NCBI GenBank assembly: GCA_033398695.1
Contig: CM065812.1
Location: forward strand, 140,560,858-140,624,857
DNA from: Orobanche coerulescens
Taxonomy: Eukaryota > Streptophyta > Magnoliopsida > Lamiales > Orobanchaceae
Direction of reading: 5' to 3'
DNA length: 64,000 bases
Positions within the stretch are counted from its first letter, which is position 1. Every line of letters starts with the position of its first letter. The position numbers and the translations under genes were made by a program. The notes under the pieces were generated by a model that worked only from the letters and a program-made list of their open reading frames with translations, ran no database searches and had not been told where the DNA came from. Of this stretch, positions 7,404-62,956 are shown piece by piece.

Positions 7404-7940
7404 TTACGTACGTTAACTAGGTAAGCGTAACGTCCGTTACGTAGCATGTGTTACGTATGTTATGAGAGGAATCGGGCGTGGTCCAAGCTATGATCGACAA
7501 GTGGGGCCTGTGTCGGCAACTTTTGGCACGGATGTGGACATATGAGTCAACAAATGATTTAACATATGACATGATGCAAGTGTTATGTACGTTAAAGGAG
7601 CAAGATGTTTACGTACGTTATGCGAGTTGTGTTACGTATGTAATAGTATCAGTTGATAAGAGCCGTAGCTTCTGGATTGAGGATAACGTAGGTTATTATT
7701 ATATGATTACGTATGCTAATGGTGTGTTGTGTACGTAAGTAGTTGGACATTACGTACGTAACTGAGTTACTATTGCAAGTCAACACCTATATCACGTACG
7801 CTATCGCATGTGCCTTATGTACGTAATCATGGAATGGAAATGAGGCAATAACATCTGGATTAGTATTACGTATGCTATAAAGGAGGGATAACGTACGTAA
7901 AGGATGTTACGTACGTTAAGTCTGTTGTCTAACGTACGTA
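7404..7940 (+). promoter_or_regulatory. U3 array of TTACGTACGTAA-type palindromes (solo LTR)
   Basis: About 15 copies of an inverted repeat with consensus TTACG-TA-CGTAA lie in 540 bp. Perfect ACGTACGT cores sit near 7406, 7611, 7751, 7893, 7910 and 7932; variants such as ACGTCCGT, ATGTACGT and ACGTATGT fall between them. Where clustered, centres are about 23-26 bp apart. The array stops some 15 bp before the TATA box. Most variants differ by a CpG to TpG/CpA change, as expected for methylated repeats. The ACGT core resembles the plant A-box bound by bZIP factors, but that link is inference. Confidence 0.8.
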
Positions 7941-7953
7941 ATGATTAGAAGTC

Positions 7954-7963
7954 TATATATATG
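7954..7963 (+). promoter_or_regulatory. putative TATA box of the solo LTR
   Basis: TATATATATG lies directly after the palindrome array and before a region (7970-8040) without further palindromes. The layout array, then TATA box, then R/U5 matches elements A, B, C and D, where the TATA candidates occupy the same relative place. The transcription start cannot be set from sequence alone. Confidence 0.55.
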
Positions 7964-8267
7964 TGAGATGTCTGTCACTTCGATATTTTCACAACTCACT
8001 TCATTTTTCGCCCGTCAACCCTCCAAGATGGATTTTTGGCTCCTCTAACTTGATTATGAGCTTCATGACATGGATTGGATTTTGAGATATGATGATATTA
8101 TTGATTCTTGAGGTGTTTGATTGTGATATTCATCTCCTTGAGGTATGTTGGTTAATCTTCTCTTTATTTTTGGGTTTTGATGTTGTTGTTGATGATTAAT
8201 TCGTATGATGATAGTTTATGGAGGTGTTGTGATGATTCTTGAAGTTTCCTGGATCTTGAGTTGAGGA

Positions 8268-8321
8268 AGATGATGATATGATGATGATGATGATGTGTGT
8301 GTGTGTATATATATATATATA
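8268..8321. repeat. compound microsatellite (GAT)n(GT)n(TA)n
   Basis: Consecutive runs of GAT, GT and TA repeats lie within the R/U5 part of the solo LTR. Simple slippage explains it. Confidence 0.85.
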
Positions 8322-9423
8322 CATTGGATTATGTTGTTATGAACATGATTATGGAATCATGGTGTTCTTGGTTTTGATTATAAACATGGATTTGATGGTT
8401 AGAACCAATATTGCGTTGATTGTAGTGGCCGTTTTTGTATGTTCTTGATGAGTAATGAATCATGATATGAGGTTGATTTCGGAGAGGTTATGGTTAATGT
8501 TGGATTACGATTATTCATGATATTGAGCTATTTGGATAGTTCGGATTGATGATAATACAGGTAATTATTTTTCTATGAATTTACGAGTATGAATAAGAAG
8601 GAACCTTGTTAATTCGTATTTAAGGTTGAAGTTGGAATCTAGAATGTTGAGACGCTTGTTAGAATTGATTGATTATCGAATTGCGTCTTGTATTCGTAAT
8701 TGATTGAGTTGAATGGTTTGGGTTTGTATATGATCGAGATATCGTTAAACCATTGATTTTGATTGGTTGGTTATATCGATTGTTGATTACTATCGAACAT
8801 GTTAATTAATTATTGCATTAGGTTGTGATAAGTGATCATTGATTTTAACAGTTGTGTTGTGGACGAGATTGAAGAGTACGTGTATTGTTTTGGCCGAGGC
8901 TGAGGAACTCGTAGAAGAAGGCAATGGGATTGGTAGCAGCTTCGTCGTATCGATATCGAGGCAAGTTTGTACTTGTTAAATTTATAATATTTAATGATTG
9001 GTTTCACTTTCATTTCATTTATAATTCATATAGCAATGATGTTATAAATGTAAACTACCAGGATGATGGTTTGTATATTGTGCTTTGGTTTGGATTAAAT
9101 CATAATGTATATGATTTAAATGTGTTTTGTGAAGACGGAGATGTGAGTTATCTTTGATCCGTGATATGATATGTTAGATATCGAGGATAGTTTATCGTGT
9201 CGACATTGATGTCGGGATTGTGGTTTATTGATATTAATGGATTGCACCTCATTCGAGATTATTTCGAATAACTGTGTATTCGTTCAGGGTTGTTTGTTCG
9301 TGCAAAGGATATTGTCTTCGGCTTTGAGGTAATTGAAGTATTATTCAGTTATGAGGATAATTATTCTGTTGAATTATTGTATATGTTGTATGTTGACGTT
9401 TCATGAGATTCGTATTAGCTGTT

Positions 9424-10235
9424 CGTTGATGGATGTTGATCCCAGTACCATTGTTTTGTGTTGATGATTGTGTTGATTGATCGTTGAGGGATGGGGACTC
9501 CAGGATTGTTGTGTTGAGACTGTTGATCATTTTGATCGTTCTTTGGGGATTGTGATCCCAGGATGGTTGTTTTGGATATTATTGGTCGCGTCGATCTTTC
9601 ATTATCCATGTGTCATTTATGCGTGCCGATTGGTTATGTGTTGGATTTTCAGGGCGGGCACGTATGGTCATGTGTAGGTTTATTACCTTCACATTGAGCT
9701 ATGCACACAAGACGTACTTCGTGAGACTGATTAGGTACAAGACCACACGTGTATTCGATCGATACCCATTGGTGGCTTGTGCACAAACACATTTCCGGAT
9801 CGGGCATACTGTGACGTCCATCTTGAGCCATATTGATTGGTCGTTCATACTCCATGTATGATTGGGTATGTTCGACGGTTTTCGACTGGTTGTTCATACA
9901 CCTGAGGGGTATGTTCGACCATCGGGTTTGTTTCTTTAAGATCCACTGTATGTGATTTGTATAACGTTTTGAGAATTTTATTCTCTCGTATATCTATCCA
10001 TGTGGTTCTTTGTTGATCTTGTTTGGAGTTTACCATGTTGATGGTATTCTCGATCGTTATTGGTCCTTTGTTGATCATGTTGGAGCTTACCATGTGATGG
10101 TATTCTCGGTTATTGTTGATCTCTCGTTGGTAGTATTGGAGTTTATCATGTTGATGATATTCTCGGTTGTGGTTGACCTCTGGCTGGTTGTATTGGATTT
10201 TATCATGTTGATGATATTCTTGGTTGATCATCATT
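9424..10235. repeat. minisatellites inside the solo LTR (about 60-bp units)
   Basis: Two imperfect tandem clusters lie in R/U5. At 9424-9570 units share GTTGAT, TTGATCGTT, GGGGA and CCAGGAT. At 10008-10235 four units of about 60 bp share GGAGTTTACCATGTTGATGG and ATTCTCGGTT. Element C carries 35-bp and roughly 60-bp minisatellites in the equivalent part of its LTR, so length growth by tandem repeats seems common in these families. Confidence 0.6.
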
Positions 10236-11203
10236 ATTAATCGTATGAACTTTTGGATTTTGCATCGATGTTTCGGACCTTGTTTCCACTGATTTGGGTA
10301 GTTGTTTCACAGCTGGATTGTGTATTATTGGTTTTTATCATCATTTATCAGGATTGAGATTTGATTGTGCGATCCAACAGACATGATTTGGCACGGATGA
10401 ATTATTCCACACTTGTGAGTTATGATGATGTTTTGAGAATTCTTGCTATTGTTTGAATACAGTACATATGGTTGTAGTTGAGTTCATTTCATCATTTGAG
10501 AATACGAAATGTGGATTATGGTAAGGATTGCTATGGGTTGGTAAGGTAATGACGCTAAAATTACGTTGGTAGTATTCTTACTATGTTATTACATTGGTAT
10601 GAAATTATTTATGATGGTGTGATCGTTATCATTATTGAGTATTGTGGCTGACCCCATCGTGGGCTTTATTTTTAGGTACTCGGAGATCGAGCTAGTAGCG
10701 GTCGTGAAGGGATGAGCTTCCTGGATGATACTGGTTATGGCATATATTTTCGGAACTGAGTATTTTACTGTTAATTATATTCTGCTGTAAATGTATTTTT
10801 AACTATGTTTATGTCCACTGCGTGTATATTTTAAATGGCTTTCCGGTAGTTGACCAACTCGTGTATACTTTTACAATGGCCTTTTTGGTACTTTGCAAAC
10901 TTGAGTTAATTTTGTAAAACCTTTTTCCTTAAACTATTTTGTCTGTACATGTAAGCGGTGACTTAACGTATATTTTTAAACTGTCTAAATTTGGCATTTT
11001 TGCCTTGTACTTTCAACTAGAAGCTTATGACGGTATTTGAGAACTATATTTTGGAAAACATTTAATTAATCGTAAAATATTACCGTCTTTGCCTCTTTGG
11101 CGTGTTTGAAACGATTGTGAAAATGATTTTTAGCCTTGTGGATTTCGACGCGGGCCCCACGGTGCTGTAATTTCCCGTATGGTTTTGGGAGTGTTACACA
11201 TAT

Positions 11204-11764: not shown

Positions 11765-11769
11765 TCACT

Positions 11770-13721
11770 TGTAACACCCCTAAGTTATTCAGGGTATATT
11801 ACAGCGCCGTGAGCCCCGCCGTGGGACCTACAAGGCTATTTATATGCGGAACTATGAACTTGGACCGAGAAGGTCCAAGTACAATGAAATGGAAGACAAT
11901 AAAAATGGTATTCAAAACCATATCCAATACATCCGAATCTAATATATCACAAATCAATACCACGGCAACACAGGCCAGAACATCAAGAAAACCGAAAACA
12001 GTACTTGAGTATTCAAAAACCATTCGAGTACAACAACACTGAATGGAGGAAATACAAAACATAACCAGAGACAAGACACGACATCAAATTTTCCCATCAT
12101 ATTCATGCCGACCCGGTACCTGCCTATCCGCTCTTCTGGATCCTGAAATACATGAAAGGTATTTCCCCTATAAAGGGGTTAGCCGTCGAATAGCTAGTAC
12201 AAGTATATCAATATGAAACACACTACTCCTCGACAATAAAGTAAATGTAATCATCATCTCATCAACTCAAGACTAGTATTCCGGAATAACTAAATATCAT
12301 AGCATCACATTCAATACATACATGATTAACCGTGGAACCGCACTAGAGGCTACGGAACCTTCAGAGGACCCATCGGTCCGTCCTAGAGTGCTTAACTCAA
12401 CTGCACCAGACCCGTCGGACCGTCCCAGAGTGGATATATATCATCATACATTTCACATATCTTACTTTGAAAGTCGAGAACGTACAATCATAAACATATA
12501 CTTACCTTTGAGATATCGAGAATCGGAAGGAAAAGAGTATGAGTTCGGTAGGTCCAAGAACGCACTTCCGGCCCCTAAACGATTTGCAAGGAATACGATA
12601 ATCAATAATCCATACTTAAATCACACGAAGAAACTCCCAAAACCTGTCTACGATTCACGAAACTACAAGGGTAAACATCTAGAGATTGGAAAATAACTCA
12701 AACCTTCTCAAGACCGAACAAGGTACAAAAAAATCCGTATAATCATAGGGGGAAACATGGGTACAGGGTAGATACATCATAAGCTCAAAGATATCAAGCT
12801 CCAAAACAGATAAATCATACGAATCTTAGAAAATCCCCAAAAATTCCCAAAATTAGGGTTCTAAGGATCTTACCTTGATTAGGAGGATAGAAATGGATTA
12901 GATATTGTGTGTAATCTTTGTTATCCAACCAAAGATGATGATATCTGAATAAGGATCGCCTCGAATCGCTCCGAATAGCCCAATCCCGCTGCTCCCGATG
13001 AAATGAGTGGAAAAGAAGTGGAAATGACAACTGCAAGGGTTAGCTGCCCTTATATACTGCGTTTGCTTAGCGTGCGCTAAGCTTCAAGATTAGGGTGCGA
13101 TAATGGGGTCACCCGGTAGTCCAGAGGCTACTTACCTGCGACGTTAGTGCGTGCTACCAAGCCTTAGCATGCACTAACTGGTGTCCTGCCAAAGTCCCAT
13201 TTCAGTGTCCCACTCCGCTAGCATGTGTTACTACTGGGAACTAACGCGTGCTACGCAACACATATATCGTGCGCTAGCCGCTTCCTAGCGTACGCTACCT
13301 GATAGTCCAGAAAGTATGAATACCTCTCTGCCTCTGCCGACTCAGCTCATTAGCGTGCGCTACGGACGAAGTTAGCACATGCTACACGAATAACGTGCAT
13401 TAGCGAACTCCTAGCGTGCGCTAACTGCTAGTCCAGAGGGCAGAAATAGCTATTGCCTCTGCCATGCTCCGAACGCTATCGTGTGCTAAAGCTCAAAGCT
13501 AGCCTGCGCTACTTAATTAGAAAAAGAGTGCGTTAGCCTAGGCCTAGCGTGCGCTATCTCCCTGACCCAGAACACTGCCGAAAGGTCCAATCAACACGAT
13601 CAAGATCCAAACAAGGTACGAAACTCTAAGTCAACATCGACAACATCTCAAAGTGTTTACAGAGCGACAAAAGAGGAAGAACGACAAGGTCAACCAATCA
13701 ATAAAAAGTACGGGTATTACA
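11770..13721 (-). repeat. element A 3' LTR
   Basis: In plus coordinates it runs from TGTAACACCCC to GGGTATTACA. It aligns throughout with 27416-29370, with scattered substitutions and small indels. In sense it holds U3 with the AGCGTGCGCTA array, a TATA box, R/U5 and an end block CACGGCGCTGTAATAT followed by a small hairpin and GGTGTTACA. Confidence 0.92.
13050..13560 (-). promoter_or_regulatory. element A 3' LTR: TATA box and U3 array of TTAGCG-NN-CGCTAA repeats
   Basis: On the minus strand AGTATATAAGG (near 13050-13060) is the TATA candidate. Directly upstream of it lie about 15 copies of an inverted repeat with arms TTAGCG/CGCTAA around a 2-bp centre, usually TG. Examples start at 13068, 13351, 13373, 13391 and 13412, spaced 18-22 bp in that cluster. 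Many copies are decayed at CpG (TTAGCATGCACTAA-like). The motif sequence is unrelated to the TACGTACGTA array of the solo LTR, but position and symmetry are the same. Confidence 0.8.
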
Positions 13722-18039: not shown

Positions 18040-18469
18040 TGATGTGAATCGAGATATTATGAAGAACCCGGATGAGGACTTGAGCATACTGACTAGACCA
18101 ATAACGAGGTCTTGATCAAAGAAGTTCAAAAATAATTTATCGACACTCGTCATTGATATGTTTAAAAACAACTATGTTATCAAAGACAACAAATTCATGA
18201 GTAGTGTCGAAGTTGTCGAACAATAAGTTTTTCGTTTGTTTTATCTTGGTGTTTTTTAATTTGAATTGTATTTATTGAGTTATATTTTTATATTTTGAGT
18301 TGTATATAATCGAGTCATGTAATATTAAAGTCGATGACGATCGGAAAAGACGAACAAACAAACAAGGATGCAAATTCCCGCGCGTAAGACTGACACGCAG
18401 CACTCTCGTATTTTGGCCATAACTTACTCGTCCGAAATCCGATTCAGGTGATTCAGCTGTCTATGGAAA
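18040..18469 (+). repeat. CRM-like element 5' LTR fragment
   Basis: It matches the first 430 bp of the LTRs at 19408 and 25798, including the integrase C-terminal coding stretch ending ...SVEVVEQ-stop. It stops abruptly at GGAAAGC, where the sequence jumps to integrase coding DNA. The LTR part that would hold the TATA box is missing. Confidence 0.9.
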
Positions 18470-19594
18470 GCAAAATCACGAGTGTTACCACATGGTTTGT
18501 ATATGCCACTTCTGGTACCTTCCGAACCTTGGGTCGATCTTTCTATGGACTTTGTATTAGGATTACCCAAGGCGAAATTCGGTTGTGACTCCATTTTTGT
18601 TGTAGTTGATAGATTTAGCAAAATGGCACACTTCATTGCATGTCATAAAATGGACGACGCCACACATATTGCTAATCTATTTTTCAAAGAAATTGTTCGT
18701 TTACATGGTATGCCCAAAAGCATTGTATCCGATAGAGATACCAAATTTTTGAGTCATTTTTGGAGAGTCTTATGGGCAAAATTGGGGACAAAATTGCTTT
18801 ATTCTACATCATGTCATCCCTAAACTAATGGTCAAACCGAGGTTGTTAACCGAATGCTTCGTAAATATTTGCGAACTATTGTTAACAAAAATTTGAAAAA
18901 TTGGGAAACATCTTTACCATTTATCGAGTTTGCCTATAATCGAACCGTACATTCTACTACAACATTTTCGCCATTTGAAGTCGTGTATGGTTTTAATCCA
19001 ATAACTCCTTTAGACTTGTTGCCTATTTCAATAGATGACAGGAGTAACCTTGATGGCAAGAAAAAGACGGAGATGGTGAAGCAATTACATGCCAAAGTTC
19101 GTGAACAAATTGAGAAGCGCAACGAACACAATGCAAGAATGAAGAACAAGGGACGCAAACAAGTACTCTTTGAACCAGGTGATTGGGTTTGGGTTAATTT
19201 GAGGAAAGAACGATTTCCCATTCAAAGAAAATCGAAGCTAATGCCAAGGAGAGATGAACCATTCCAGATCTTAGAGCGGATTAACGACAATGCCTATAAA
19301 GTAGAACTACCTGGTGAGTATAATGTTTCCACTACTTTTATTGTCGCTGACTTAAGTCCTTTTGAAATTTCAGATTCGAGGACGAATCTTTTTGAGGAAC
19401 GGGGGAATGATGTGAATCGAGATATTATGAAGAACCCGGATGAGGACTTGAGCATACCGACTGGACCAATAATGAGTTCTCGATCAAAGAAGTTCAAAAA
19501 TAATTTATCGACACTGGTCATTGATATGTTTAAAAATAACTATGTTATCAAAGACAACAAATTCGTGAGTAATGTCGAAGTTGTCGAACAATAA
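18470..19594 (+). pseudogene. CRM-like integrase, 3' part (first copy)
   Basis: It begins mid-domain at [14 protein letters not shown] and carries the catalytic core: [11 protein letters not shown], then [12 protein letters not shown], then NGQTEVVNR, so all three acidic residues survive. A single stop (TAA at 18821-18823) interrupts it where the second copy has CAA. From 18854 the frame is open to the stop at 19594, passing GPY/F-like DEPFQILERINDNAYK and running through the LTR start at 19408. It keeps CGA arginine at the junction where the second copy has a TGA stop. It is a remnant of a deleted internal region, with no promoter of its own. Confidence 0.88.
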
Positions 19595-20378
19595 GTTTTT
19601 CCTTTATTTTATCTTGGTGTATTTTAATTTGAATTGTATTTCTTGAGTTGTGTTTTTATATTTTGATTTGTATATAATCGAGTCGTGTAATATTAAAGTC
19701 GATGACGATCGGAAAAGACCTACAAACAAACAAGGATGCAAATTCCCGCGCGTAAGACTGACACATGACAGTCTGGTATTTTGGCCATAACTTACTCGTC
19801 CGAAATCCGATTCAGGTGATTCAGGTGTCTATGGAAATATAATAAAGAGAGCTACAAATCCTTTTAAGACCATAGGACCATATTCCGAGCCATTGGAGCT
19901 CAGAAATGACAAAACAAACAGCATCGGATTAATGGTGACTTGTTGTCCTTGTTTTCACACCTTAAAATCTTGGTCTTTGATATTTTGTCCCTAAACATGT
20001 GTTGACTGACTTTATATCAGATTTTAGGATCTTTGAATGTTGATTATTATATTTTGTAGGTTTCTTAGTTGTTTTCTTGTTCACACTAGAGTTAGGTGTA
20101 AGTAAGATTTTATGAAATTCGAGAGTGTTTGTATTAACAAACCTTTGTGAGTGCTTTCTTGTTTTGTTGAGTGTGTCTCCAAAACATCCCTTGTGTGATT
20201 TATATACTTATCAAGTACAATCTTGTTAGTATTTATATTCCACCCCTTCCGAGTTGCTACGGCGAGTCACGTAGAGGTTTGGAAGTAAAGCCTCATTTTG
20301 CTTATTTTGGAAACATCCCGGGAACGAATTTATCTAGCGGTGTCGGTTACCATAGCGTATCGTGTGGGGGTCGCATCA
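19408..20378 (+). repeat. CRM-like element middle LTR (functional 5' LTR of the second unit)
   Basis: It runs 971 bp from TGATGTGAATCG to GGGGGTCGCATCA. Compared with the 3' LTR it lacks about 45 bp around 20100, precisely the stretch holding the TATA box (GGCTATAAATAGCC at 26501-26514). Downstream, GTTGGCTTCGGATC follows directly and TGGTATCAT occurs about 33 bp later; either could be a degenerate PBS, the latter resembling initiator-Met. Confidence 0.9.
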
Positions 20379-21162
20379 GTTGGCTTCGGATCTCGGTTAT
20401 TCCAAAACTAAGTGGTATCATCTATTTTTCTTCATTACCATAATCTTCCTACCTTACCATCCTATCATTTCCTTCATCTTCTAAATCTTCCATCTTCTTC
20501 ACAATAAAAAAAAAAAGAAAAAAAAATATAAGTGGTGAAGATTTTGATTGTTTTTGATAACTCTTCAAGCCGAGGCCAGGGGAAGAACTTGTTCCTTAGC
20601 CTTCGGGCGTCTGGTGATTTTAAGCTTGCGAATCGAATATCAAATATCAATCCATTAATTTCATTACTAAAAAAAAAAAGAAAAAAAAAGAAAAAAAATA
20701 TAAGTGGTGAAGGTTTTGATTGTTTTTTATAACTCTTCAAGCCGAGGCCAGGGGAAGAACTTGTTCCTTAGCCTCCGGGCGTCTGGTGATTTTAAGCTTG
20801 CGGATCGAATATCAAATATCAATCCATTCATTTCATTACTAAAAAAAATATCATGGAAGAAGAGAAGAACGAATTTTGGTCGATCTTATCAAACAATTAT
20901 CATACTTTACGTTCCGTTCCATATTCTAAACTATTCCAAAATCTTTGGCTCCCATCCTTCTATTTTTTTTCTTATCGTCATTCGCAATCTTTGGGGGGAT
21001 CGTGGGATTTGAGTTCTTTCAAGAAGAAACTTGATTTGAATCACCTAAAATCACCTTGTAAGTTGTGTGGAAAAAGGCAAAAATTTTTTTTGAGGAATTA
21101 AAAAAAAAAAGCCAAACGAGAGATACGCGAGTGTGAGCGACCGAGCGATCTCCTATGAGGAA
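20379..21162 (+). repeat. CRM-like element leader with a 172-bp tandem duplication
   Basis: AGTGGTGAAG occurs at 20531 and 20703; the two 172-bp units are almost identical up to TTCATTACTAAAAAA and are separated by A-rich runs. Both carry AACTCTTCAAGCCGAGGCCA and GGGCGTCTGGTG. The remaining leader to 21162 is noncoding and ends in A-rich DNA. It looks like a slippage or template-switch duplication. Confidence 0.85.
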
Positions 21163-21275
21163 ATTTTCTTGTAAAAAAAAAAGGAAAAAAAAAAGAGAAG
21201 AAAAAAAAACCAAAAAAAAAAAAGAAAAAAAAGGGAAAAAAAGAGAAAAAAAAGGAAAAAAAAAGGAAAAAAAAA
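21163..21275 (+). repeat. homopurine A/G tract just before gag
   Basis: Apart from two cytosines and a few T near its start, the tract consists of A with scattered G. It ends at the gag ATG (21276). Such A/G-rich leaders precede gag in several plant gypsy lineages; here it could also be read through as lysine-rich codons upstream. Confidence 0.8.
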
Positions 21276-22530: not shown

Positions 22531-23246
22531 ATCTATTTCACACACGTTGTTTTATTAAAAATAAAAATTGTAGTGTGATAATAGATAACGGGAGTTTCAC
22601 TAATGTCAATAGCGCTATGCTAGTGGAAGAACTCGATCTTCCAACAAGAAGACACCCTAAACCGTATCATTTACATTGGCTAAATGATTGTGGGGAAGTT
22701 TGAGTTAATAAACAGGTACTTGTGGCTCTCACAATCGGAAGGTATGAAGATGAAATCATATGTGATGTCGTTCCGATGCATGCTTGTCATATCTTGTTGG
22801 GAAGACCATGGCATTTTGATCGAGATGCTACTTTGAGCGGAAGGAAAAATCGTTACTCATTCGAGAAGGACGGAAAGAAAATTATCTTAGCTCCCATGAC
22901 TAAGGTACAAATACAAGAAGATAAACTTCGTCTTGAAAAGGAATTTGAAGGAAAATCGAGAAAAGAAAAGGAAAAGAAAAATGAAAAAAATGAAAAAAGC
23001 GAGAAAAATGAAAAAAATGAAAAAAAGAAAGAAAAAGAAAATTTAAGAAAATGCATGCTTGTAAGTGCAAAGGAACTTGAAGAAGATATCAAGGAAAATG
23101 CACCCATGTGCTTGATTATTTTCCGAAAAGTTTGCGCTACTACTAACCCTGGGAACCGGATAATTCCGAGTTCTATTAAATCTTTATTCCAGGAATTTGT
23201 TGATGTTTTTCCTGAAGAACTACCTGCAGGGTTGCCACCAATATGA
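22531..23246 (+). pseudogene. CRM-like element protease and linker
   Basis: The active-site region SVIIDNGSFTNV lies near 22572-22607; the triplet is D-N-G (D at 22584) where relatives have D-G-G or D-S-G. A TGA at 22701-22703 interrupts it after NDCGEV. The frame then resumes through HACHILLGRPWHFDRDA and a strongly biased K/E/N linker at 22960-23045 (KEKEKKNEKNEK-like), ending in a TGA at 23244-23246. Both nonsense codons are compatible with CGA to TGA changes. Confidence 0.82.
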
Positions 23247-45771: not shown

Positions 45772-45783
45772 ATCTCCCACTCG
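45772..45783 (-). other. copia polypurine tract
   Basis: On the minus strand GAGTGGGAGAT lies directly before the 3' LTR start TGTTAGAAG. Confidence 0.75.
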
Positions 45784-51263: not shown

Positions 51264-51969
51264 TGTTAGGATTCGGTGCCTAAACCGAAGGCCCAGTGGA
51301 AGTGGTAAAACGAAAATTAATCGATCTGAATCCCTACGAGGATCGATCGAGCTACGTATATATGAATATATAAACAAAAACACAAGAAATATTAGAAACT
51401 CACCCTTGTCGTCCGTTGATTAAATGGATTCCTTCTCTTGAGATATTCCCCAAGCTTTAGTTGTTCTCCCCGAATCCAATCCGCTCCAAGTTCTTGTATG
51501 ATCCAACGCCGAAGGACCGCGTCTCTACTTGCCACGTGCCGGAGAAATGACCGGACGAATAAACCTCGTTATCCTCCAAAGATACGGCTAGAAAAAGGTT
51601 ATAGAAGCTATGCAACTCAAGATTACAACAGTCTAAGTGTTTAATCTAGTATCGCTCTATCTTATAAATATTTTTCTCCAAGAAAAACTTGTGAATGTTA
51701 TGAAGATGATGATGAATAGTATGAAGCCTTGGAAAAAACTTTTCCTCTCTTCTCCTCCTAACAAAAACGTGAGTGCTAGTATATGCAAGGAGATGTGGCC
51801 TTCTCAATTTATTCTCCATCAAATCCCCTCAAATCAATCACCTTTTGACAAAATCACCTAAGGTGATATTTTGTCCCATTGACAAAACATAAGTCTTCCA
51901 CCAACATATGGAGACTATGACCAAGGAAAAATGGAAAGAAAGAGGGGCGGCCATCTAGAAGGAGCCGAG
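51264..51969 (-). repeat. copia 5' LTR, part 1 (downstream end in sense)
   Basis: It runs from TGTTAGGATTCGG to GGAGCCGAG, where element C interrupts. The last five bases CCGAG pair with CCGGG at 60930-60934 as the target duplication of C. Confidence 0.93.
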
Positions 51970-52734
51970 TGTAACACCCCCAAATCCTATTGGGTTATTA
52001 CAGTGCCGTGGACCCCACGCCAGGAGATCCACCAGGCGAACATGACTAAAAATACATTAATTAACACAACAAGGGAAAATCATAGTCCCTACCATGATAT
52101 CCGACACAATATTCCGATAAGGAATTTCAACGACAAAAGTAGCCTACATGGCCAAAAATGAAATACAACAACATCCACGAACATCTGTTCGGGTAATACA
52201 ACACGACAACAACTGACAAGACTGGAGTACACTCCAACCGACTGACCGACAATGAACAACTCGTACTAGTATCGCTTGAATGCCTCGTCGCCATCATCAT
52301 GCCCCTGTGTCTCAACTCTCTCCTCGCAAGCACCTAAAACATGAAAACATGTTCCGCCACGGTCGGGCCATCCAGATAATGTACATCAAATACATGTATA
52401 ACATGATATGCATCCAAAGGCGTAATGAAATGGTACAATGATGATAATAATACGAAATGCTCACAAACCAAGGTAAGAACCGAGCATTCGTGAAATACTA
52501 TGCCCACGGCATACTATTAATAATTGCTCGACGTGTTAGAACATAAATGCCCAACGGCGAATCATAATCACGAATACCACAATGAATTAAACGACATGAA
52601 CCAAACCAGAACCGAATTTAATATGAATCATAATGCCCAGAGGCTCATGAAAATACCAAGGCATTACAAAAGGGTGAAAGTCGTTCAAATGGAAATTAAC
52701 AAATATCACAAACACGAAGTCAAAGCAATGTAAG

Positions 52735-53232
52735 TCAGTAACAATGAAGGTGAAGCCACGCACGAAGCCGTATCACAATGAGGGCGAAGCCACGCATCCA
52801 CCGTATCACAATTAGGGGAAGCCACGGCATCCACCGTATCACAATTAGGGTCGGCCACGGCATCCACCGTATCACAATTAGGCGAAGCCACGATCCACCG
52901 TATCATAATTAGGCGGCCACGGATCCACCAGTATCACGGTGAATGATAGTGTGCCGCCTTGAGTCGGCCAACACGATGATAGTAACACCCGGATAGACAC
53001 CGCCCTGACACCCCAAATTAACACCTCGATTGCCTTAGAACGGCCAACCGACAACAATGATGCAGCGGATGATTGAACATTTCGATTTGCCTGAGAATGG
53101 CCAATCGATAACAATGATACGATGAATGAGTGAATACCTCGATTGGCTTAGAAAGGTCAATCGATAACAATGATTCAGTGAATGATTGAACATTTCGATC
53201 TACCTGAGATCGGCAATTCGATAACAATGATA
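52735..53232. repeat. element C LTR minisatellites, 35-bp and about 60-bp units
   Basis: At 52735-52930 a unit of about 35 bp (GTATCACAAT, AGGG, GAAGCCACG, CATC) repeats six times. At 53025-53232 a unit of about 60 bp (TCGATT, CCTTAGAA, GGCCAA, ACAACAATGAT) repeats four times. The 5' LTR has the same arrays at about 58725-58920 and 59000-59205, with cleaner 35-bp units. Open frames through the arrays reflect the repeats only. Confidence 0.8.
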
Positions 53233-54342
53233 TGAAGGAAGCCTCGGCACCTTTAATCGGTTACCGACGACGAAGGTGAGAAATGAATAAACCAATGCCT
53301 TTAATCGGCCTGTACAGTTTTAATGACAATCCAAACAGGAATAACAATGATCTCAACGATGTCTTAAATTGACATCTATATTAACAACAATCGATACATC
53401 GATACCGCGAACCGGATATCGACAATGACATTAATAATGAGTATTACAATGCCTTGAATCGGCCGTTAACGAACAACAATAACATTTGGCAAAATTGCCG
53501 GAAGGTATCGTATCGAACGATCTCTTGATATCAATGAATTCATGAAGAGACTAAGTCTCGGAATGATACAACACATTCATACACATACATGATGACATTA
53601 GCTCATTGACCAGTACAAGTATAAAACTTGCCTCAAACCGAAGGCGAGAAGGTACTTCCACGATCAACGTCCTTAATGAAATTACCGGCCGCTTGAACAA
53701 CCTTAAACAACACAAAAACCAACAATTCTCTTAATACATGAATCAAGCATGATCACAACCAACTCAAAAGTCGATACAACAATACCCGAAACTCATTGGG
53801 GCATTTACACAAACGCGTTGTAAACAATCTCCAATTGTTTACAACCAAAACTCAATTACATCCGAAACCAACTCCCAATGAATGATTCAAACCCACAAAA
53901 ACTCATGAATACTATCAATAATCCAATAGGAATACTTAGAACGATATTTCAACAACATTTAGTCGAAAACCCCCAAAATTCCAAAGTCAACCCGTAAGGG
54001 TTCTTGAACAATTCCTCAATTATTCATAAATTCGAAAATTACACCAATGAATCCGTAGAAATACATGTATCCAAGATAGATAATCCATATCTAACATATT
54101 CCAACATAATATCGATTTACACGAAGAGATCGAAAGCAAAACACCCAAGATCCGAAATTCTAGATCCAAGAATCATTACCTTGATTTGGAGTGATGAAAC
54201 TGATTTAGATGATGATTAATCCAACTTAGAAGCTTGAAGATGATGCTAGATGATTGCAGATCGAAAAGACCTTTCCGAATCGCCCGAGCTCGTCCGAAAT
54301 GATTGAGAAATGAAGAAATGACGAAAGTTGGACCGAACTGTC

Positions 54343-54790
54343 CTATTTATACTGCCCGACTTAGCGCGCTAACTCGATGTTAGCGTGCGCTAACGCTGTA
54401 CCGGGTAGTCCAAGACTTCGATCGAATCGTTAGCGTGCGCTAAGTACCTTTGGTAGCGTGCGCTAACAGCCTGTCCTTAGCGTACGTTAACCTTATGTTA
54501 GCGTGCGCTACATGATAGTTGGTATCCAAAATCCTGGAGTCCAGAACCTACTGTCCTCTGATCTGAGCGCGCTAGCGTGCTCTACTCTGAAGTTTTAGCG
54601 TGCGTTACCAGCATAGTTAGCGTACGCTACTTACCACTCGTAGCGTGCGCTACGAATTTCCCAAATCAGCCCAGTACCTTCGGATCGCTCGCCTCACTTG
54701 CGCTAGCGTGCGCTAAAATCAATCATTACGTGCGTTACATGCACCTCATTAGCGCACGCTAATTCATAAATGGGTAGCGTGCGCTACCTC
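54343..54790 (-). promoter_or_regulatory. element C 3' LTR: TATA box and TTAGCG-NN-CGCTAA array
   Basis: On the minus strand AGTATAAATAGGA (54343-54354) is the TATA candidate. Upstream of it, inverted repeats start at 54362, 54381, 54431, 54454, 54478, 54499, 54573, 54596, 54618 and 54641, with further copies to 54790. Offsets in runs are 19, 23, 24, 21, 23, 22 and 23 bp. Centres are TG, TA or CA. Arms TTAGCG/CGCTAA are better kept than in element A. Confidence 0.85.
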
Positions 54791-54986
54791 TCAAACTGCA
54801 AATAAAAACATGATGATGATGACGACAACAATCTCGGCTCGATCTCAAACAGTGATGATCCCAAAATACGCCGAAAGGTGAACATAGTTGACTGAATATG
54901 AATGATGAATGATTATTACTGAGTGAAAAAAATTCTGAGTGACAGTTACTGAATGATAATAAATGAATTCACGACCGGGTATTACA

Positions 54987-55070
54987 TACTCCCCCCCTTA
55001 AAAAGAGTTTCGTCCTCGAAACTGAGGGTAAACAACTCAGGATATGATCTATCCATCACGATCTGAAAAC
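54987..55070 (-). pseudogene. element C polypurine tract and last codons of pol
   Basis: On the minus strand the tract TTTTTAAGGGGGGGAGTA abuts the 3' LTR. Before it lies MDRSYPELFTLSFEDETLF, which resembles the end of the chromodomain region in A (LEYPELC) and B (SRYLELF). This scrap marks the 3' edge of the pol deletion. Confidence 0.6.
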
Positions 55071-55639
55071 AATAACGCCCAAATAGTCCTCGGGACCAAA
55101 TCAACCGTAAGCCCAAGTCCCCAAGACTTGACGTCTCGAAGCACAACGCCGGAGGGATGAACTCCCAACAAATGACCCAAATCTCAAGATTCTCGAATAT
55201 GATCATAATAAGATAGATCAACAATAAATGATCCACAGTCACGATACATTATTACGGATAGATATACACAGTCATCCAAAAACAAGGTTACATCTCAAAT
55301 GTACCCATCATCGATATCCTCCCATATCATCGATTTCCTCTATCTCAACGATTAAAGGTATATCCGATGATGAATTCGCCGCTAACTATTATCTTAGAAG
55401 GTCACGAGAATGAAAGTGACAAAAATGAATGATGAATGATAAATGACTACAAATCCGACAAGGATTTAGAATGACTCACCAAGGTGAATTAATAACGTCA
55501 TGAGTGATAGTTCCTTGAAGTGATTGGAACTGCCGTTCCTCGTGAATTAAATGATTAATCGATAATTATGAGTCCCAACATGATTGATATACATGATGAA
55601 TGAATTATATGAATGAATGAACGACAATGAAATGAATGA

Positions 55640-56886
55640 TTATCCTCCTACCGAGCAAGAATTAACTTGCTCAAAACTGGTGATGAATGTCCTTACCTCG
55701 GGCTCTCGAAGCCTGATAGGGCCCCCTGAAAGAAGTATGGATCGAGTAACAAAATCCTCGAGGCTCTTGAGCTCTCTTGAGATTTCTCGCGCTAGAACCC
55801 TGCAGATTTCTGCGGTGTCCCCGCCTCCCACACGTAAAACACACAATAGCCGGCACCGTACACCGGGTACTAACGTGACTCTTGAATCACGATTAAAGCA
55901 AACGGCAGGTCGAACTCATCGCTGAGAGGAAGATCTTGTCCCAAAGACGAAGACGACTAGAAAACGACCCCTTGGATGACGGAGCCCGATGTCCCTCCGA
56001 ACGAGCCGGCATTCTAGTCCTCTCACTCAAGAAATCAAGGATGCTTCGAGTAAGCTCCTTGATCAAAAGCTCGCTCCCAAGAGCCTTCCCGATGAACTCA
56101 CTAAGTGAATTACAATTGTGGTTGAACAACTGCATCCTCAACTGCGGATTTAGCCTCTTGCTAAAATACTTAATTTTATCCGCCTCAGTACGGATAATTG
56201 ACGAAGCAAACTGAAGTAGTCCCTGAAACTTCTCAGCGATGACAATAACACCCTCGTCCTCGTCGGGTTCGGGGTTCAAAACCTCTGACAACTTGGCTTC
56301 ACGAAGTGGAGCCGGATAATATTCTCTCTAACATGAGAGTCTTGAACTCGCTCCAAATACAATCACGATCGATGGGTTTCACAGAAAGCCACCACGAATA
56401 AGCGCCCTTACTCAAGTAATAAGCCGCTACTGCCACTTTACTCTCCTCCGGACACTGAACCATGTCGAAGAGTTTATCAAAATGCTCGAGCCAATGAACA
56501 ATATCGGTAGTTCGAACCCTCAAAAGTAGGCGGCATCGACGAGAGATATCGCCAACAATCTGATTCACTCCTCCGTCTGTCCCATGAAATGGCACTGCAT
56601 CCTCATGCGGTGGACCACGAACCATCGAGGTGCATGGTCTCCACTATCCGCGTCATCCGAGTCATCCGGGCCATCATGCCCTGCATAAATATGAATGGAT
56701 CAACCGACACCTTCCGAGTGAGATGCCTCTCGTACGACTCCTGACAGGTGAATGATTATCCGGATGAATGAGTAGCCTCGCTATTTGATGAATTAATGAT
56801 ATCCTCGCATTCGTGGGCATGCATACGAGATCTCGGTTCCGGCCCGCACCGCGCCTCTTCCCCGTCCTCTCGATGACTCTATCCAT
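55640..56886 (-). pseudogene. element C gag, broken
   Basis: On the minus strand an RG-rich start near 56886 (GRGRGAVRAGTEISYACP) is followed by the capsid-like block 56299-56625 (WLEHFDKLFDMVQCPEESKV, AAYYLSKGAYSWWLSVKP). A frame change follows, then 55893-56291 (EKFQGLLQFASSIIRTEADK, YFSKRLNPQLR), and last a zinc knuckle split by a frameshift: CFTCGRRGHR in one frame and AEIC in another. Only gag survives in C. Between 55071 and 55640 nothing recognisable remains, so the deletion joins this area to the pol end. Confidence 0.82.
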
Positions 56887-57159
56887 ACTGAAGTAGGAAA
56901 GTCACATGATGATTATAGATTCCGCATGAATATCGCATTATGATCACGTTACAGAGTGACAATAATGAGCATACACGCTCTAACACAATGAATGCATTAA
57001 TGATTAAATGAAATGATCGTCGACATTACGTCAGAGTATGATGAAACCGTATGAAACATCAAATGAGGTAACATGATTGCCTGATGAAATTCCTGAAATG
57101 ATTACCTTGAACAAGTTAACAAGGTTGAAAATTCGATCCTCAAGATCAACAACTGAACC

Positions 57160-57540
57160 GTGAGATGGGCTGAATGATTAATGAATTAACTGAACAATGA
57201 GATTGACTGAGTGACGAGTGAATTAGCTAAACGATGAGATTAATTGAGTGATGAATGAATTAGCTGAACGATGAGGTTAATTGAGTGATGAATGAATTAG
57301 CTGAACGATGAGGTTAATTGAGTGATGAATGAATTAGCTGAACGATGAGGTTAATTGAGTGATGAACGAAGCAACTGAGTAATGATATTGACTGAATGAT
57401 GAATGAATTAACTGAGTGATGAATTAACTGAGTAATGATATTGACTGAGTGATGAATGAATTATCTGAGCGATGAATTAACTGAGTAATGATATTGACTG
57501 AGTGATGAATGAATTAACATGATCGACAAGATCAGAATGA
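57160..57540. repeat. 37-bp tandem repeat in element C internal region
   Basis: TAGCTGAACGATGAGGTTAA starts at 57261, 57298 and 57335 in near-perfect 37-bp units. Degenerate units on both sides share GAGTGATGAATGAATTA and ATTGACTGAGT. The array lies between PBS and gag, in the leader, with no coding. Confidence 0.85.
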
Positions 57541-57915
57541 TGATTGAGGATTATTAACTGATGAATGAGTTGATCCTTAATGCTTACACAAGCCACACGT
57601 GTCCCAAAACAATTAGTCATGAATCAATCATAACACTAATATCGCATATAGGTTTCAACAAGGCATGAACAATTAATGACATGATGAATGTATGAACATA
57701 AAGAGAATCGAGTCCTTACACAGGTCATACGAAGCTTCGAGGTCTCGCGATACTAGTCTTCACTGACGACGACTCGATGAATGAATGACTCGTGCAGTCG
57801 TACTAATATTACGACTCACAAAACCTGACTGACTAGATTGTCATAAACCTGGCAATCCCACTACTACCGTCGGTAGGACTACATAACTCACATCTCGGTA
57901 TTTCACAACCCAAAT

Positions 57916-57926
57916 CTCTGATACCA
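57916..57926 (-). other. element C primer-binding site
   Basis: On the minus strand TGGTATCAGAG lies 3 bp inside the 5' LTR boundary, matching the initiator-Met type used by A and B. Confidence 0.88.
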
Positions 57927-57929
57927 TTT

Positions 57930-60929
57930 CGTAACACCCCAAATCCTATGGGTTATTACAGGCCGTGGACCCCACGCCAGAGATCCACCAAAGTAACATG
58001 ACTAAAAATACATTAATTAACACAACAAGGGAAAATCATAGTCCCTACCATGATATCCGACACAATATTCCGTTAAGGAATTTCAACGACAAAAGTAGCC
58101 TACATGGCCAAAAATGAAATACAACAACATCCACGAACATCTGTTCGGGTAATACAACACGACAACAACTGACAAGACTGGAGTACACTCCAACCGACTG
58201 ACCGACAATGAAAAACTCGTACTAGTATCGCTTGAATGCCTCGTCGCCATCATCATGCCCCTGTGTCTCAACTCTCTCCTCGCAAGCACCTAAAACATGA
58301 AAACATGTTCCGCCCCCACGGGGTCAGTCATCCAGATAATGAACATCAAATACATGTATAACATGATATGCATCCAAAGGCAGAATGAAATGGTACAATG
58401 ATGATAATAATACGAAATGCTCACAAACCAAGGTAAGAACCGAGCATTCGTGAAATACTATGCCCACGGCATACTATTAATACCTGTTCGACTAATTAGA
58501 ACATAAATGCCCAACGGCGAATCATAATTACAGAATACCACAATGAATTAAACGACATGAACCAAACGAGAACCGAATTTAATATGAATCATAATGCCCA
58601 GAGGCTCCGATGAAAATACCAAGGCATTACAAAAGGGCTGAAAGTCGTTCAGCGGAAATTAACAAATATCACAAACACCTGAAGTCAAAACAATAAGTCA
58701 GAACAATGAGGGCTGAAGCCACGGCACGAAGCCGTATCACAATGAGGGCCGAAGCCACGGCATCGGCCGTATCACAATTAGGGCCGAAGCCACGGCATCG
58801 ACCTTATCACAATTAGGGCGAAGCCACGGCATCGGCCGTATCACAATTAGGGCGAAGCCACGGCATCCACCAGTATCACAATTAGGGCGAAGCCATGACA
58901 TCGGCCGTATCACGGTGAATGATAGTGTCCGCCTTGAGTCGGCCAACACGATGATAGTAACACCGGATAGACACCGCCCTTGACAGTCCCAAATTAACAC
59001 CTCGATTGCCTTAGAACGCCAACCGACAACAATGATGCAATGATGATTGAACATTTCGATTTGCACGAGAATGGCCAATCGATAACAATGATACGATGAA
59101 TGAGTGAATACCTCGATTGGCTTAGAAAGGTCAATCGATAACAATGATGCGATGAATGATTGAACATTTCGATCGCACGAGAACGGCAATTCGATAACAA
59201 TGATATGAAGGAAGCCTCGGCACCTTTAATCGGTTAAGCTTACGAAGGTGAGAAATGAATAAACCAATGCCTTTAATCGGCTGCATGCTTTTAATGACAA
59301 TCCAAACAGAATAACAATGATCTCAACGATGTCTTAAATTGACATCTATATTAACAACAATCGATACATCGATACCGCGAACCGCTATCGACAATGACAT
59401 TAATAATGAGTATTACAATGCCTTGAATCGGTCGTTAACGAACAACAATAACATTTGGCAAAATTGGAAGGTATCGTATCGAACGATCTCTTGATATCAA
59501 TGAATTCATGAAGAGACTAAGTCTCGGAATGATACAACACATTCATACACATACATGATGACATTAGCTCATTGACCAGTACAAGTATAAAACTTGCCTC
59601 AAACCGAAGGCGAGAAGGTACTTCCACGATCAACGTCCTTAATGAAATTACCGGCCGCTTGAACAACCTTAAACAACACAAAAACCAACAATTCTCTTAA
59701 TACATGAATCAAGCATGATCACAACCAACTCAAAAGTCGATACAACAATACCCGAAACTCATTGGGGCATTTACACAAACGCGTTGTAAACAATCTCCAA
59801 TTGTTTACAACCAAAACTCAATTACATCCGAAACCAACTCCCAATGAATGATTCAAACCCACAAAAACTCATGCATACTATCAATAATCCAATAGGAATA
59901 CTTAGAACGATATTTCAACAACATTTAGTCGAAAACCCCCAAAATTCCAAAGTCAACCCGTAAGGGTTCTTGAACAATTCCTCAATTATTCATAAATTCC
60001 GAAAATTACACCAATGAATCCGTAGAAATACATGTATCCAAGATGGATAATCCATATCTAACATATTCCAACATAATATCGATTTACACGAAGAGATCGA
60101 AAGCAAAACACCCAAGATCCGAAATTCTAGATCCAAGAATCATTACCTTGATTTGGAGTGATGAAACTGATTTAGATGATGATTAATCCAACTTAGAAGC
60201 TTGAAGATGATGCTAGATGATTGCAGCTCGAAAAGACCTTTCCGAATCGCCCGAGCTCGTCCGAAATGATTGAGAAATGAAGAAATGACGAAAGTTGGAC
60301 CGAACTGTCCTATTTATACTGTCCCAGCTTAGCGCGCGCTAACTAGATGTTAGCGTGCGCTAACGCTGTACCGGGTAGTCCAAGACTTCGACCGACCGCG
60401 TTAGCGTGCGCTAAGTACCTTTGGTAGCGTGCGCTAACGGCTGTCCTTAGCGTACGTTAACCTTATGTTAGCGTGCGCTACACGATAGTTGGTATCCAAA
60501 ATCACGGAGTCCGTAACCTATCGTCCTCTCGATGCGAGCGCTGGCGTGCGCTACTCTGAAGTCTTAGCGTGCGTTACCAGCATAGTTAGCGTACGCTACT
60601 TACCACTCGTAGCGTGCGCTACGAATTTCCAAAATCAGCCCAGTACCTTCTGGACTGTCTGCCTCACTTGCGCTAGCGTGCGCTAAAACTGAATCAGCGC
60701 ACGCTAACTACAATGGGTAGCGTGCGCTACCTCTCAAACTGCAAATAAAAACATGATGATGATGACGACAACAATCTCGGCTCGATCTCAAACAGTGATG
60801 ATCCCAAAATACGCCGAAAGGTGAACATAGTTGACTGAATATGAATGATGAATGATTATTACTGAGTGAAAAAAATTCTGAGTGACAGTTACTGAATGAT
60901 AATAAATGAATTCACGACCGGGTATTACA
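57930..60929 (-). repeat. element C 5' LTR
   Basis: It starts CGTAACACCCC, a mutated TGTAACA, and ends GGGTATTACA. It contains the TATA box and palindrome array at 60310-60735. Confidence 0.93.
60310..60735 (-). promoter_or_regulatory. element C 5' LTR: TATA box and TTAGCG-NN-CGCTAA array
   Basis: TATA candidate (minus CAGTATAAATAGGA) at 60309-60321, array at 60329-60735. Perfect TTAGCG-TG-CGCTAA repeats occur at about 60349, 60400 and 60422. One repeat reads TAGCGCACGCTAA, the same site with its centre on the other strand, showing that orientation of the 2-bp centre is not fixed. Confidence 0.85.
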
Positions 60930-62259
60930 CCGGGCGAGTTCGGTCTGTTTCGGACTCCCGTGAGTCTAAACAGATAAACTCCGATTCCGTTCTGATGTAT
61001 TTATATCGATTAACTAATCCAATTAATTAATCATATCAAATACATAATAACATAATTATTTTCTCCAAGAAATAATTATATTCATGAATTAAATTAATCA
61101 CCCAGTAATATATTTAATTCATTTGGTCGTAAATTAATTTTTACAATAAATTAATTTAGACATCCAATATCCCAAATTTAATTAGACATCCAATGTCTAA
61201 CAAATTAGATATCCAATATTTAATATTCATAATTAGATAATAAGCTTAATTCATCCCATCGTCAATCCTATTGCGCGACTCGGTAGGTCCGTCTCAGTCA
61301 GCAATGGGAGGAACCAAAGAGTAGCAGCACCACCTAGCCAGCTTGGCGGCCTACACTGTACCCCAACTGAGAACGAATGATGGGATCATTCAAGAACCAT
61401 TTTGTCGTGAATACCACTATACGTATAAACCCTTCTTTCAAATGTTCCAATCAAGTTATAGGGTCACGGTCAGTCAAACCCTATTTGTACTTGACTCTAT
61501 GCATGCGTTAATGCAAATCGAGATCATCAAGCTCTCGTGTATCCAATACAACTAGCTCAAATGCTTTGGCCAAATACTTATGATCTCATCTGCCAATAAC
61601 CGCATAGGACATATAACCCGCTCACTAACGGGAGAAAGAATTCTATCTTGGTATTCAGTAAGACCTGCTACTTGTCCGTCAAGATGCACGTCGAGGTTGA
61701 CCCCCACCTTCTGGTTTACAGGGTTGAACTACTCTAATGAAAATCTTGACGTCACAAGCACATCCCTACTAAATCCTCAAGTCGAAGGTTCACGAATACC
61801 TATCACAACCTTTCGATTTCGTCATTGACTATCCCGGAGTGAAATCCGTGTGACGAATCGAGGGTGAGTCAGTTCGAATATACTAATACAATTAGCATAC
61901 CTATAACGTGTGCTCCCACTAAACATTAGTGTTCGACAGGCACTCTCCTTGTAAAAGAACACGTCATACAAGTCTTCACATAAACTTAATGCCCAGTCAA
62001 GTTTCATCGACTTGCGAATGATTAAGTATTTGAGCTATAAACCTTTCCAATGCCAACTCCCTTATCCAATAAGGAGTGGAACATTTTGCCCTTAAATACA
62101 CGGACTAGTTTCTATATGTATATTTACGAGTTAAGAATGCCAGTAACTACCAATAAATAAAGAAACATCCATTGCCTTATATAAATGATTTACATAATTA
62201 CAAGTACAATGCCCTCACTCAACATCCTTTGAGTGGCATTCGAGGGCATACTTCTAACA
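60930..62259 (-). repeat. copia 5' LTR, part 2
   Basis: It resumes CCGGGCGAGTTCGGTC and ends CTTCTAACA. Together with part 1 it gives an LTR of about 2.03 kb, equal to the 3' LTR. The following AGACA closes the copia target duplication. Confidence 0.93.
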
Positions 62260-62264
62260 AGACA

Positions 62265-62956
62265 TACGGTTCGAACTTCTTCAATAATTCGATCCTAGTA
62301 CAACAAAATACCGAATCAAATATCACACCATGAAAACGGAAGGATTAACCCTAAGTTTTACCCTTAGGGACACTTAATCGAACACTTCTAAGACAACATG
62401 GTTCGGATTCAAACTACGGAAGAAAACTTGGAATTTAATCCACGAACTTCGAAGAAAAACGAAGGATTATGATTACAACATCATAATCTAACACCAATCA
62501 GAGCTAGAATGGATTAAAATTGAAGATTTAGCAAAAGCCCCAAAATATGAAGAACCAGGAATTTAAACGAATTTTACCTTGATTCCAATGGAACTCAAGT
62601 GGCGGATGATGTTAGACACGAATAAAACTCACCAAAATGATGCACAATGATATTCCTGATCATATTTCTTAAAATCTACCGAAGAATCACAAAGGAGGAA
62701 TATAAAGGTAAAAAAATGGCTTCTAGACCCATCACTCGGCCTTTTATAGCCGAGTGCATTACGGACTTAACCGGCAGGGCCTTACGGCCGTAACGGGTTC
62801 CTATCGGCTACTACCCAAAATGCTAGGGCGTATTACGGCCGCTACTCGGCCAGGGATTATGGCAGGAATGCTCACCATCCTACGGCCATACTCAGCCGTT
62901 CCCTTACGTCCGTAACCGTCCTTTCCCTTACGGTCGTAACCAACATCTCCCTTATC
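62265..62956 (-). repeat. element D 3' LTR, U3 part, truncated at its outer end
   Basis: Sequence right of the copia insertion continues the D LTR: leader-like AT-rich DNA, TATA box, then a palindrome array. It runs into chromodomain codons near 62960 without a TATTACA end or polypurine tract, so the LTR start in sense is deleted. Confidence 0.75.
62741..62940 (-). promoter_or_regulatory. element D 3' LTR: TATA box and TTACGGCCGTAA array
   Basis: On the minus strand GGCTATAAAAGG (62740-62751) is the TATA candidate. Upstream of it are five or six inverted repeats: ATTACGGACTTAA at about 62757, TTACGGCCGTAA at 62782, TTACGGCCGCTA at about 62832, TACGGCCATA at about 62880, TTACGTCCGTAA at 62904 and TTACGGTCGTAA at 62928. 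Close pairs are 24-25 bp apart. This is a third motif type (arms TTACG/CGTAA, centre GC, TC or GT) in the same location. Confidence 0.75.

Follow-up and report, generated by a model that had tools for sequence, protein, structure and literature searches.

A phased 12-bp CpG dyad forms arrays upstream of TATA in the long terminal repeats of five related retrotransposon families of Orobanche coerulescens

The window analysed here, a stretch of 64,000 nucleotides of Orobanche coerulescens DNA (contig CM065812.1, positions 140,560,858 to 140,624,857), contains several nested long terminal repeat (LTR) retrotransposons, and the LTRs of five families in it carry arrays of a short palindromic unit, a 12-bp dyad, upstream of a TATA-like box. 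Elements A, B and C, whose LTR pairs were located by self-comparison of the window, all lie on the minus strand. Element A has its left (3') LTR at 11770-13721 and its right (5') LTR, which adjoins the primer-binding site TGGTATCAGAGC, at 27416-29370, with the target site duplication (TSD) AGTGA. The LTRs of element B (TSD GCAAG) are at 34245-36534 (left, 3') and about 41400-43693 (right, 5'), and those of element C (flanks CCCGG/CTCGG) at about 51970-54986 (left, 3') and 57931-60929 (right, 5'). A solo LTR without a coding part occupies 7110-11198 on the plus strand (TGTAAT...TGTTACA, flanks TATAT/CATAT); its ends were read from the sequence, the 3' end by alignment to the LTR ends of A and C. 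Element D, on the minus strand, is represented by a 3' LTR that is truncated, and DNA related to pol starts at about 62964. The LTRs of A, B and C begin alike with TGTAATRCCCG and end with GTGTTACA, or in some copies with GTGTTGCA or GTGTTACG; the primer site TGGTATCAGAG follows the 5' LTR in all three, and their polypurine tracts are similar.

The frames of element B (36654-41174, minus strand) encode integrase, RNase H, reverse transcriptase (RT), protease and the CCHC part of gag. Its Pfam-recognized parts (protease, RT, RNase H and integrase) are in the Ty3/gypsy order with the CCHC knuckle in front, and the outermost frame (40659-41174), which has no Pfam match, was named gag by its position. 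Element A contains the same kind of coding parts, and the pol domains of both are of the Ty3/gypsy type (RVT_1, SH3_Tf2-1). Long LTRs and a primer site of the initiator-tRNA-Met type are features of Tekay (Del) elements; both were found here, with LTR lengths of 2.0-4.1 kb and TGGTATCAGAG in A, B and C. The proteins of A, B and D are 64-73% identical to one another and 25-53% identical to those of a CRM-like element in the window, and the pol remnant of D is 66-69% identical to the pol of A and B. As to the chromodomain expected at the integrase C-terminus of Tekay elements, A gave a Pfam Chromo match with E 0.0019 and 18.5 bits, short of the cut-off of 25.1, and B gave none. The RT frame of B has relatives across flowering plants at 46-72% identity, none of them named Tekay among the 120 listed of 8000 matches. 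The Tekay label appears reasonable for A, B and D, whose proteins were compared with one another and with the CRM-like element. The interior of element C (54987-57930) gave no pol match, only weak gag remnants, and C, which keeps long LTRs with full arrays despite the missing pol match, was presumably mobilised in trans. Tekay elements account for 9.7-12.7% of diploid Orobanche genomes, according to the excerpted text of PMC4381496. Among the 120 matches listed for an rbcL frame of the assembly (locus L040), the best over the full length comes from another member of the Orobanchaceae, Aphyllon corymbosum, at 96%.

All eight LTR copies of these families contain an array, at about the positions given in the first-pass annotation. 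The array of the solo LTR (7404-7941, plus strand) comprises 16 units with at most one mismatch, of the TTACG/TAACG sub-type with a TA centre. The others are on the minus strand: at 13067-13557 in A left (TAGCG sub-type, TG/CA centre), 28716-29205 in A right, 36017-36395 in B left (four-unit runs at 36133/36156/36179/36203 and 36314/36337/36359/36382), 43176-43554 in B right, 54362-54787 in C left (four-unit runs at 54430-54511, 54572-54653 and 54703-54787), 60329-60730 in C right and 62759-62939 in D (TTACG half-sites, GC- or GA-type centre). At the same tolerance of one mismatch, seven of the eight copies have 9-16 units and the truncated D has five. In C left the TATA-proximal unit (54362) is a shortened form that has no central pair.

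The annotation had described three switching sequences in which symmetry was conserved while the bases were not. Once the units were aligned on their CG-NN-CG centre in element orientation (an alignment in which two C units are misplaced), the notion of several unrelated family motifs was dropped, since a single 12-bp dyad, TWRCG-NN-CGYWA, is common to all five families. Contrary to the earlier description, its T, CG, CG and A are almost invariant; variation is found at the second base (T or A), at the third (A or G) and in the central NN. The 14-mer TTAGCGTGCGCTAA of the annotation is the same 12-mer extended by one flanking base at either end. The variation itself is real and the families prefer sub-types: the arrays sort into a TAGCG type and a TTACG/TAACG type, and the central pair is TA in the solo LTR and B, TG/CA in A and C, and mostly of GC or GA type in D. 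However, all are variants of the one dyad, and several arrays contain all three half-sites (TTACG, TAACG and TAGCG). A single factor would therefore suffice, and the proposed co-evolution of a factor with each family finds no support in that form.

The pattern TWRCGNNCGYWA has 61 exact matches in the window, compared with 0.51 expected, and this number was reached in none of 100 shuffles. All 61 lie within the eight arrays, as do 91 of the 99 matches with up to one mismatch; hence neither the CRM-like LTR, already reported to lack an array, nor the copia LTR of the window has an exact unit. A count of inverted repeats made independently of the motif exceeded the maximum of 300 dinucleotide shuffles in both copies of A and C and barely did so in D (3 vs a maximum of 2). 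The solo LTR and B, whose units are often asymmetric TTACG/TAACG pairs, were not above the shuffles, and for these two the count alone is not decisive. CGNNCG was above every dinucleotide shuffle in seven of the eight arrays, D being the exception. When the pattern was derived with one family left out, it matched in four of the five left-out families and not in D, whose central bases differ.

Conservation of spacing, also claimed earlier, was borne out and can be made specific: it is about 23 bp. Counting both LTR copies, 33 of 89 neighbour distances in the window are exactly 23 bp from centre to centre, and random placement of the units was rejected in the solo LTR, B and C (p 0.001 or less). 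Self-comparison at lags of 8-120, averaged with one copy per family, peaks at 23; five control stretches show no elevation at this lag (z -0.6 to 0.4).

Since the pattern was derived from the arrays of the window, a fair test is provided by an independent sample of 20 stretches of 10 kb, taken at round-number positions on contigs C1-C5 and chosen by position alone. These contained 143 exact units and none of the reversed pattern; units occurred in 13 of the 20 stretches, with at least three in 11. A de novo scan of the sample for all 5-base arms separated by a 2-base gap recovered TAGCG (58 vs 0.12 expected), TTACG (20 vs 0.15) and TAACG (9 vs 0.10) as the highest-ranking arms, AT runs and poly-T being the only others placed between or ahead of these. 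In the entire 3.65-Gb host assembly, with the same pattern in reversed letter order as control, the whole dyad pattern occurs 2,615,881 times (46,903 reversed), TTACGTACGTAA 170,680 times (255 reversed), and TAGCGTGCGCTA 507,111 times on the forward and 510,633 times on the reverse strand (33 and 23 reversed).

The sample also yielded 19 arrays of at least four units (one mismatch allowed), or 15 after collapsing near-duplicates. In the latter, 63 of 120 neighbour gaps are 23-24 bp (null mean 5.7, maximum 16 in 3000 trials) and 50 are exactly 23 bp (null mean 2.9, maximum 11 in 3000 trials). The units are near identical, whereas the spacers between them are unrelated: the mean pairwise identity of 64 spacers is 0.293, compared with 0.253 expected from composition, so that the whole period including the spacer is not repeated, as it would be in a simple tandem repeat or satellite. 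Units come in twos and fours, the runs in step (17-25 bp) of 1, 2, 3, 4 and 5 or more units numbering 12, 27, 3, 15 and 0. Window and sample together gave 31 tetrads, some of them related copies, in which 45 of 62 outer gaps and 11 of 31 middle gaps measure exactly 23 bp. The outer gaps are thus stricter than the middle one, which identifies the pair of dyads as the stricter element and the tetrad as two pairs joined less strictly.

As the annotation had held for a U3 module common to several related families, a TATA-like box follows the last unit in all eight LTR copies of the window, starting 9-12 bp beyond it. It is at 7954-7961 (plus strand, 12 bp after the last unit, coordinates calculated from the offset) in the solo LTR and, on the minus strand, at 13049-13056 in A left (11 bp), at 35997-36004 in B left (TATTTATA, 12 bp) and at 62742-62749 in D (9 bp). 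In the seven copies that have an LTR start, the first unit is 141-295 bp from it. In the sample, a TATA lies no more than 100 bp away, on one side only, in 15 of the 19 arrays with at least three exact units (3.4 expected, maximum 10); in 12 it lies within 50 bp (1.8 expected, at most 7). Of 26 unit-TATA distances up to 120 bp, with overlapping TATA matches counted twice, 8 are 11-14 bp, 4 are 20-22 bp and 3 are 41-43 bp; the rest are scattered. The B and solo LTRs can be aligned across the last tetrad and the TATA (74.7% over 95 bp), and the other cross-family LTR matches are short and located mainly at LTR ends and in the arrays.

Because the units are alike and stand at fixed steps, with unrelated spacers between them, in families whose LTRs can hardly be aligned, we favour, with moderate confidence, the view that the arrays are sites of phased binding of a dimeric factor and act in transcription as an upstream activating element of the LTR promoter. 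To this extent the dimeric DNA-binding factor of the annotation agrees with the look of the arrays. Two subunits of a single DNA-binding protein would read each dyad, each of them recognizing one half-site. In the working pair the dyads would stand at the 23-bp step, or about 2.2 helical turns, and two pairs would often be joined as a tetrad through a more variable link of 18-24 bp. With the last dyad 9-12 bp before TATA, the bound complex would lie against the basal machinery and start the RNA of the element. The fixed CpGs may render the binding sensitive to methylation. The interior of B has no frame of at least 120 amino acids beyond gag-pol, which points to a factor from elsewhere; the binding protein is probably encoded by the host.

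Several observations weigh against this view. In the window the 23-bp step is weak in A and D (p 0.02-0.06), and the copia LTR, one of the controls, has its best self-match at the neighbouring lag of 24 (z 2.7), not 23. Single units make up 12 of the 57 runs in the sample, and a run of six at C1:384373-384498 indicates that four is not a strict limit. Four of the 19 sample arrays have no TATA within 100 bp. The LTR at locus L032 has, apart from the TATA-adjacent array, another that lies some 1.2 kb into it and is not accompanied by a TATA. In A right plus C left the R/Y positions show some covariation (22 vs 18.8, sd 1.0), as in a stem, to which a mixture of sub-types or misplaced units may contribute. 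Finally, a literature search with six exact unit words returned nothing on plant elements, as judged by titles and abstracts, and no binding protein was named. Locus L032 (1216-1404 and 8381-8668) represents a related element with a decayed or diverged pol.

The alternative that survives best, although we regard it as unlikely, is an anti-silencing platform, in which a sequence-specific factor of the host or of another element, recruited by the arrays, would keep the LTR open or free of methylation, activation being secondary. The precedent is provided by the VANC proteins of VANDAL transposons, which are encoded by the element and recruited by short motif arrays (excerpts of PMC5735166). Our arrays lie in non-coding parts, have family-preferred variants and carry invariant CpGs, and in this they resemble VANC targets, which likewise repeat a short motif in non-coding parts in family-specific variants. 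However, according to the same excerpts the VANC motif YAGTATTAY is not palindromic, contains no CpG and has no fixed step, and VANDALs are a different class of element. VANC targets also expand as tandem repeats, unlike the arrays here with their unrelated spacers. Nor was an element-encoded binding protein found: the frames of at least 120 amino acids in B are gag-pol, and C has only gag remnants. The close abutment on TATA suits promoter activation.

The decay of the CpGs bears on the same question with mixed results. In the LTR pairs of A, the most diverged, and of B they decay by transition like methylated sites: transitions affect 49 of 228 CG-context positions in A (21.5%) vs 59 of 1514 elsewhere (3.9%), and 27 of 213 in B (12.7%) vs 20 of 1959 (1.0%). 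The C pair counts against this alternative: its CG transition rate (22/352, 6.2%) is below the CHG rate (23/177, 13%). Between the two A LTRs (13067-13557 vs 28716-29205) the units show 25 differences over 169 aligned positions, of which 20 are transitions, which is consistent with methylation-driven decay after insertion. Units and spacers diverge between LTR pairs by 14.8% and 8.4% in A, 4.2% and 4.3% in B, and 2.6% and 12.3% in C; these values were not used as evidence of selection because the copies decay after insertion. As separate observations, the solo LTR has a C-poor sense strand (9.6% C downstream of TATA; window 7380-9460), and CG to TG changes outnumber CG to CA changes 10 to 1 in the units of the solo LTR and B right (43160-43580); LTR-pair differences overall have no such strand bias (28/25, 13/14 and 12/18).

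Less probable still is that, as has been suggested for the LTRs of Sireviruses, the palindromes act in RNA, as structures or as sources of small interfering RNAs, the hairpins that the annotation had offered as its second option. Being in U3, the arrays are absent from the 5' end of the element RNA and present in its 3' part, and palindromes of Sireviruses attract small RNAs (Bousios 2016, as described in excerpts of PMC10760457). The solo LTR, B left and C left fold better than their dinucleotide shuffles (z -2.7, -2.9 and -3.6), whereas folding is weak in A and D (z -0.6 to -1.5) and the stretch of copia LTR used as a control is as low (-3.5; the CRM-like LTR, -0.5). When the units were kept and their spacing scrambled, the folding energy stayed within 1.7 sd in all six arrays tested. 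Folding thus gains nothing from the fixed spacing, and the 23-bp step is best read as DNA geometry. A lone 12-bp dyad with a 2-bp centre would, moreover, be a poor hairpin.

Covariation points in the same direction. Within a unit, the mirror-image W positions agree in 31 and 29 of 55 cases vs 27.0 and 26.7 by chance, that is, they do not covary, as expected of independent half-sites; nor do the inner pairs, the loop-closing pairs or, in pairs with a TA centre, the R/Y positions. The outer W positions of a unit pair do match more often (41 of 55 vs 27.1), the sole high result of 12 tests, obtained with partly related copies. Like the R/Y covariation in A right plus C left it counts in favour of hairpins, but it would also fit a symmetric four-subunit complex. 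Covariation in pooled pairs, considered as support for many pairings, was rejected as the product of a mixture of sub-types; within the TA-centre sub-type only the outer W positions are high.

It is improbable that the arrays have no function and derive from a 23-bp satellite unit whose copies were multiplied by slippage and retrotransposition and then decayed. A constant step is expected of a tandem repeat, and several of nine inspected bacterial matches to the pattern are such repeats with shared spacers. Here, however, the length of the spacers is kept and their letters are not, the grouping in twos and fours, with a middle gap that varies, is unlike a simple tandem repeat, and the place before TATA is identical in five families. 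The bacterial matches belong to 15 loci from a pattern scan of genome contigs that were set aside, several of the nine inspected being plain tandem repeats; at these loci (L009, L011 and others, in Parabacteroides, Treponema etc.) three phased units were matched, with spacers largely shared in several. Viral contigs scanned for two or three phased units gave none, and a protein scan there was likewise negative. A role as preferred target or end-processing site of the integrase is highly improbable: excerpts of PMC6911290 report a weak preference of LTR elements for palindromic insertion sites but no such effect for Tekay (stem length 5.4 native vs 5.4 random, p 0.61), the TSDs AGTGA, GCAAG and CCCGG/CTCGG are unlike the dyad, and the arrays begin at least 140 bp from the LTR end.

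Two further elements of the window, which supplied LTR controls, are a copia element (43739-45772, 51264-51967 and 60930-62260), whose second LTR was cut in two when C inserted, and the CRM-like element, which is nested in A on the plus strand (18040-26816) and whose 3' part, from the integrase region onward, is present in two copies (about 18465-20378 and 24855-26816).

The arrays find their closest parallel in the repeated motif (RM) boxes of Sireviruses, a named analogue by which the statement in the annotation that no named element class is defined by such a module has to be qualified. According to excerpts of Bousios et al. 2010 (PMC2829016), the LTRs of 13 Ty1/copia Sireviruses contain many-copy palindromes upstream of TATA that form CpG islands, with family variants around a CGG-CCG core in all but one (Tnd-1, without the core), and no factor could be named for them. 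There are at least 8 and up to 32 boxes per element, linker copies included, and those of the LTRs cluster in the upper half, from 200-400 bp after the LTR start, before a conserved TATA. The arrays share with these boxes the high copy number, the mostly CpG-bearing palindromes, the upstream part of the LTR, the place before TATA and the family variants; seven of our eight copies have 9-16 units, D five. They differ in their carriers, A and B having pol of the Ty3/gypsy type and the copia element of the window containing no exact unit, and in their core, CGG-CCG being contained only in the D-type TTACGGCCGTAA among the unit types. No exact units were found outside the LTRs, whereas Sireviruses bearing ENV have linker copies too, and the excerpted Sirevirus text does not mention a fixed 23-bp step or tetrads. 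The arrays thus constitute a Ty3/gypsy counterpart of the Sirevirus boxes that has its own motif and a fixed step. Among the matches listed in a search of open-licence papers, none dealt with such arrays in Ty3/gypsy elements. LTR promoter sites read by host factors are also found in Tnt1 (box I, arrays of two or three motifs; cited in PMC2829016), Tto1 (cited in PMC3485330) and ONSEN (heat element; cited in PMC12786077); these are few-copy stress-response sites without a long phased dyad array.

The abundance of the dyad admits a wider interpretation, which we put forward tentatively and consider possible rather than likely. An undescribed factor, sensitive to CpG methylation and with a rigid footprint of four half-sites in two dyads at the 23-bp step, would be common to many chromovirus families of this plant, including ones without pol, and one system would control a large share of the retrotransposons through more than 2 million sites, with the Sirevirus boxes as its parallel in the other superfamily. 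To our knowledge, the transcription factors of abundant plant retrotransposons are known for few families, most of them stress-driven. A short, defined site that is present in a fixed geometry against TATA and repeated a million-fold would be a direct bait for the factor and allows a clean reporter test. The like layout in the Ty1/copia Sireviruses suggests convergence on LTR control regions made of palindrome arrays, or the existence of one host protein that reads both. The Orobanche genome would also be an enormous sink for any protein that recognizes half-sites of the TWRCG type.

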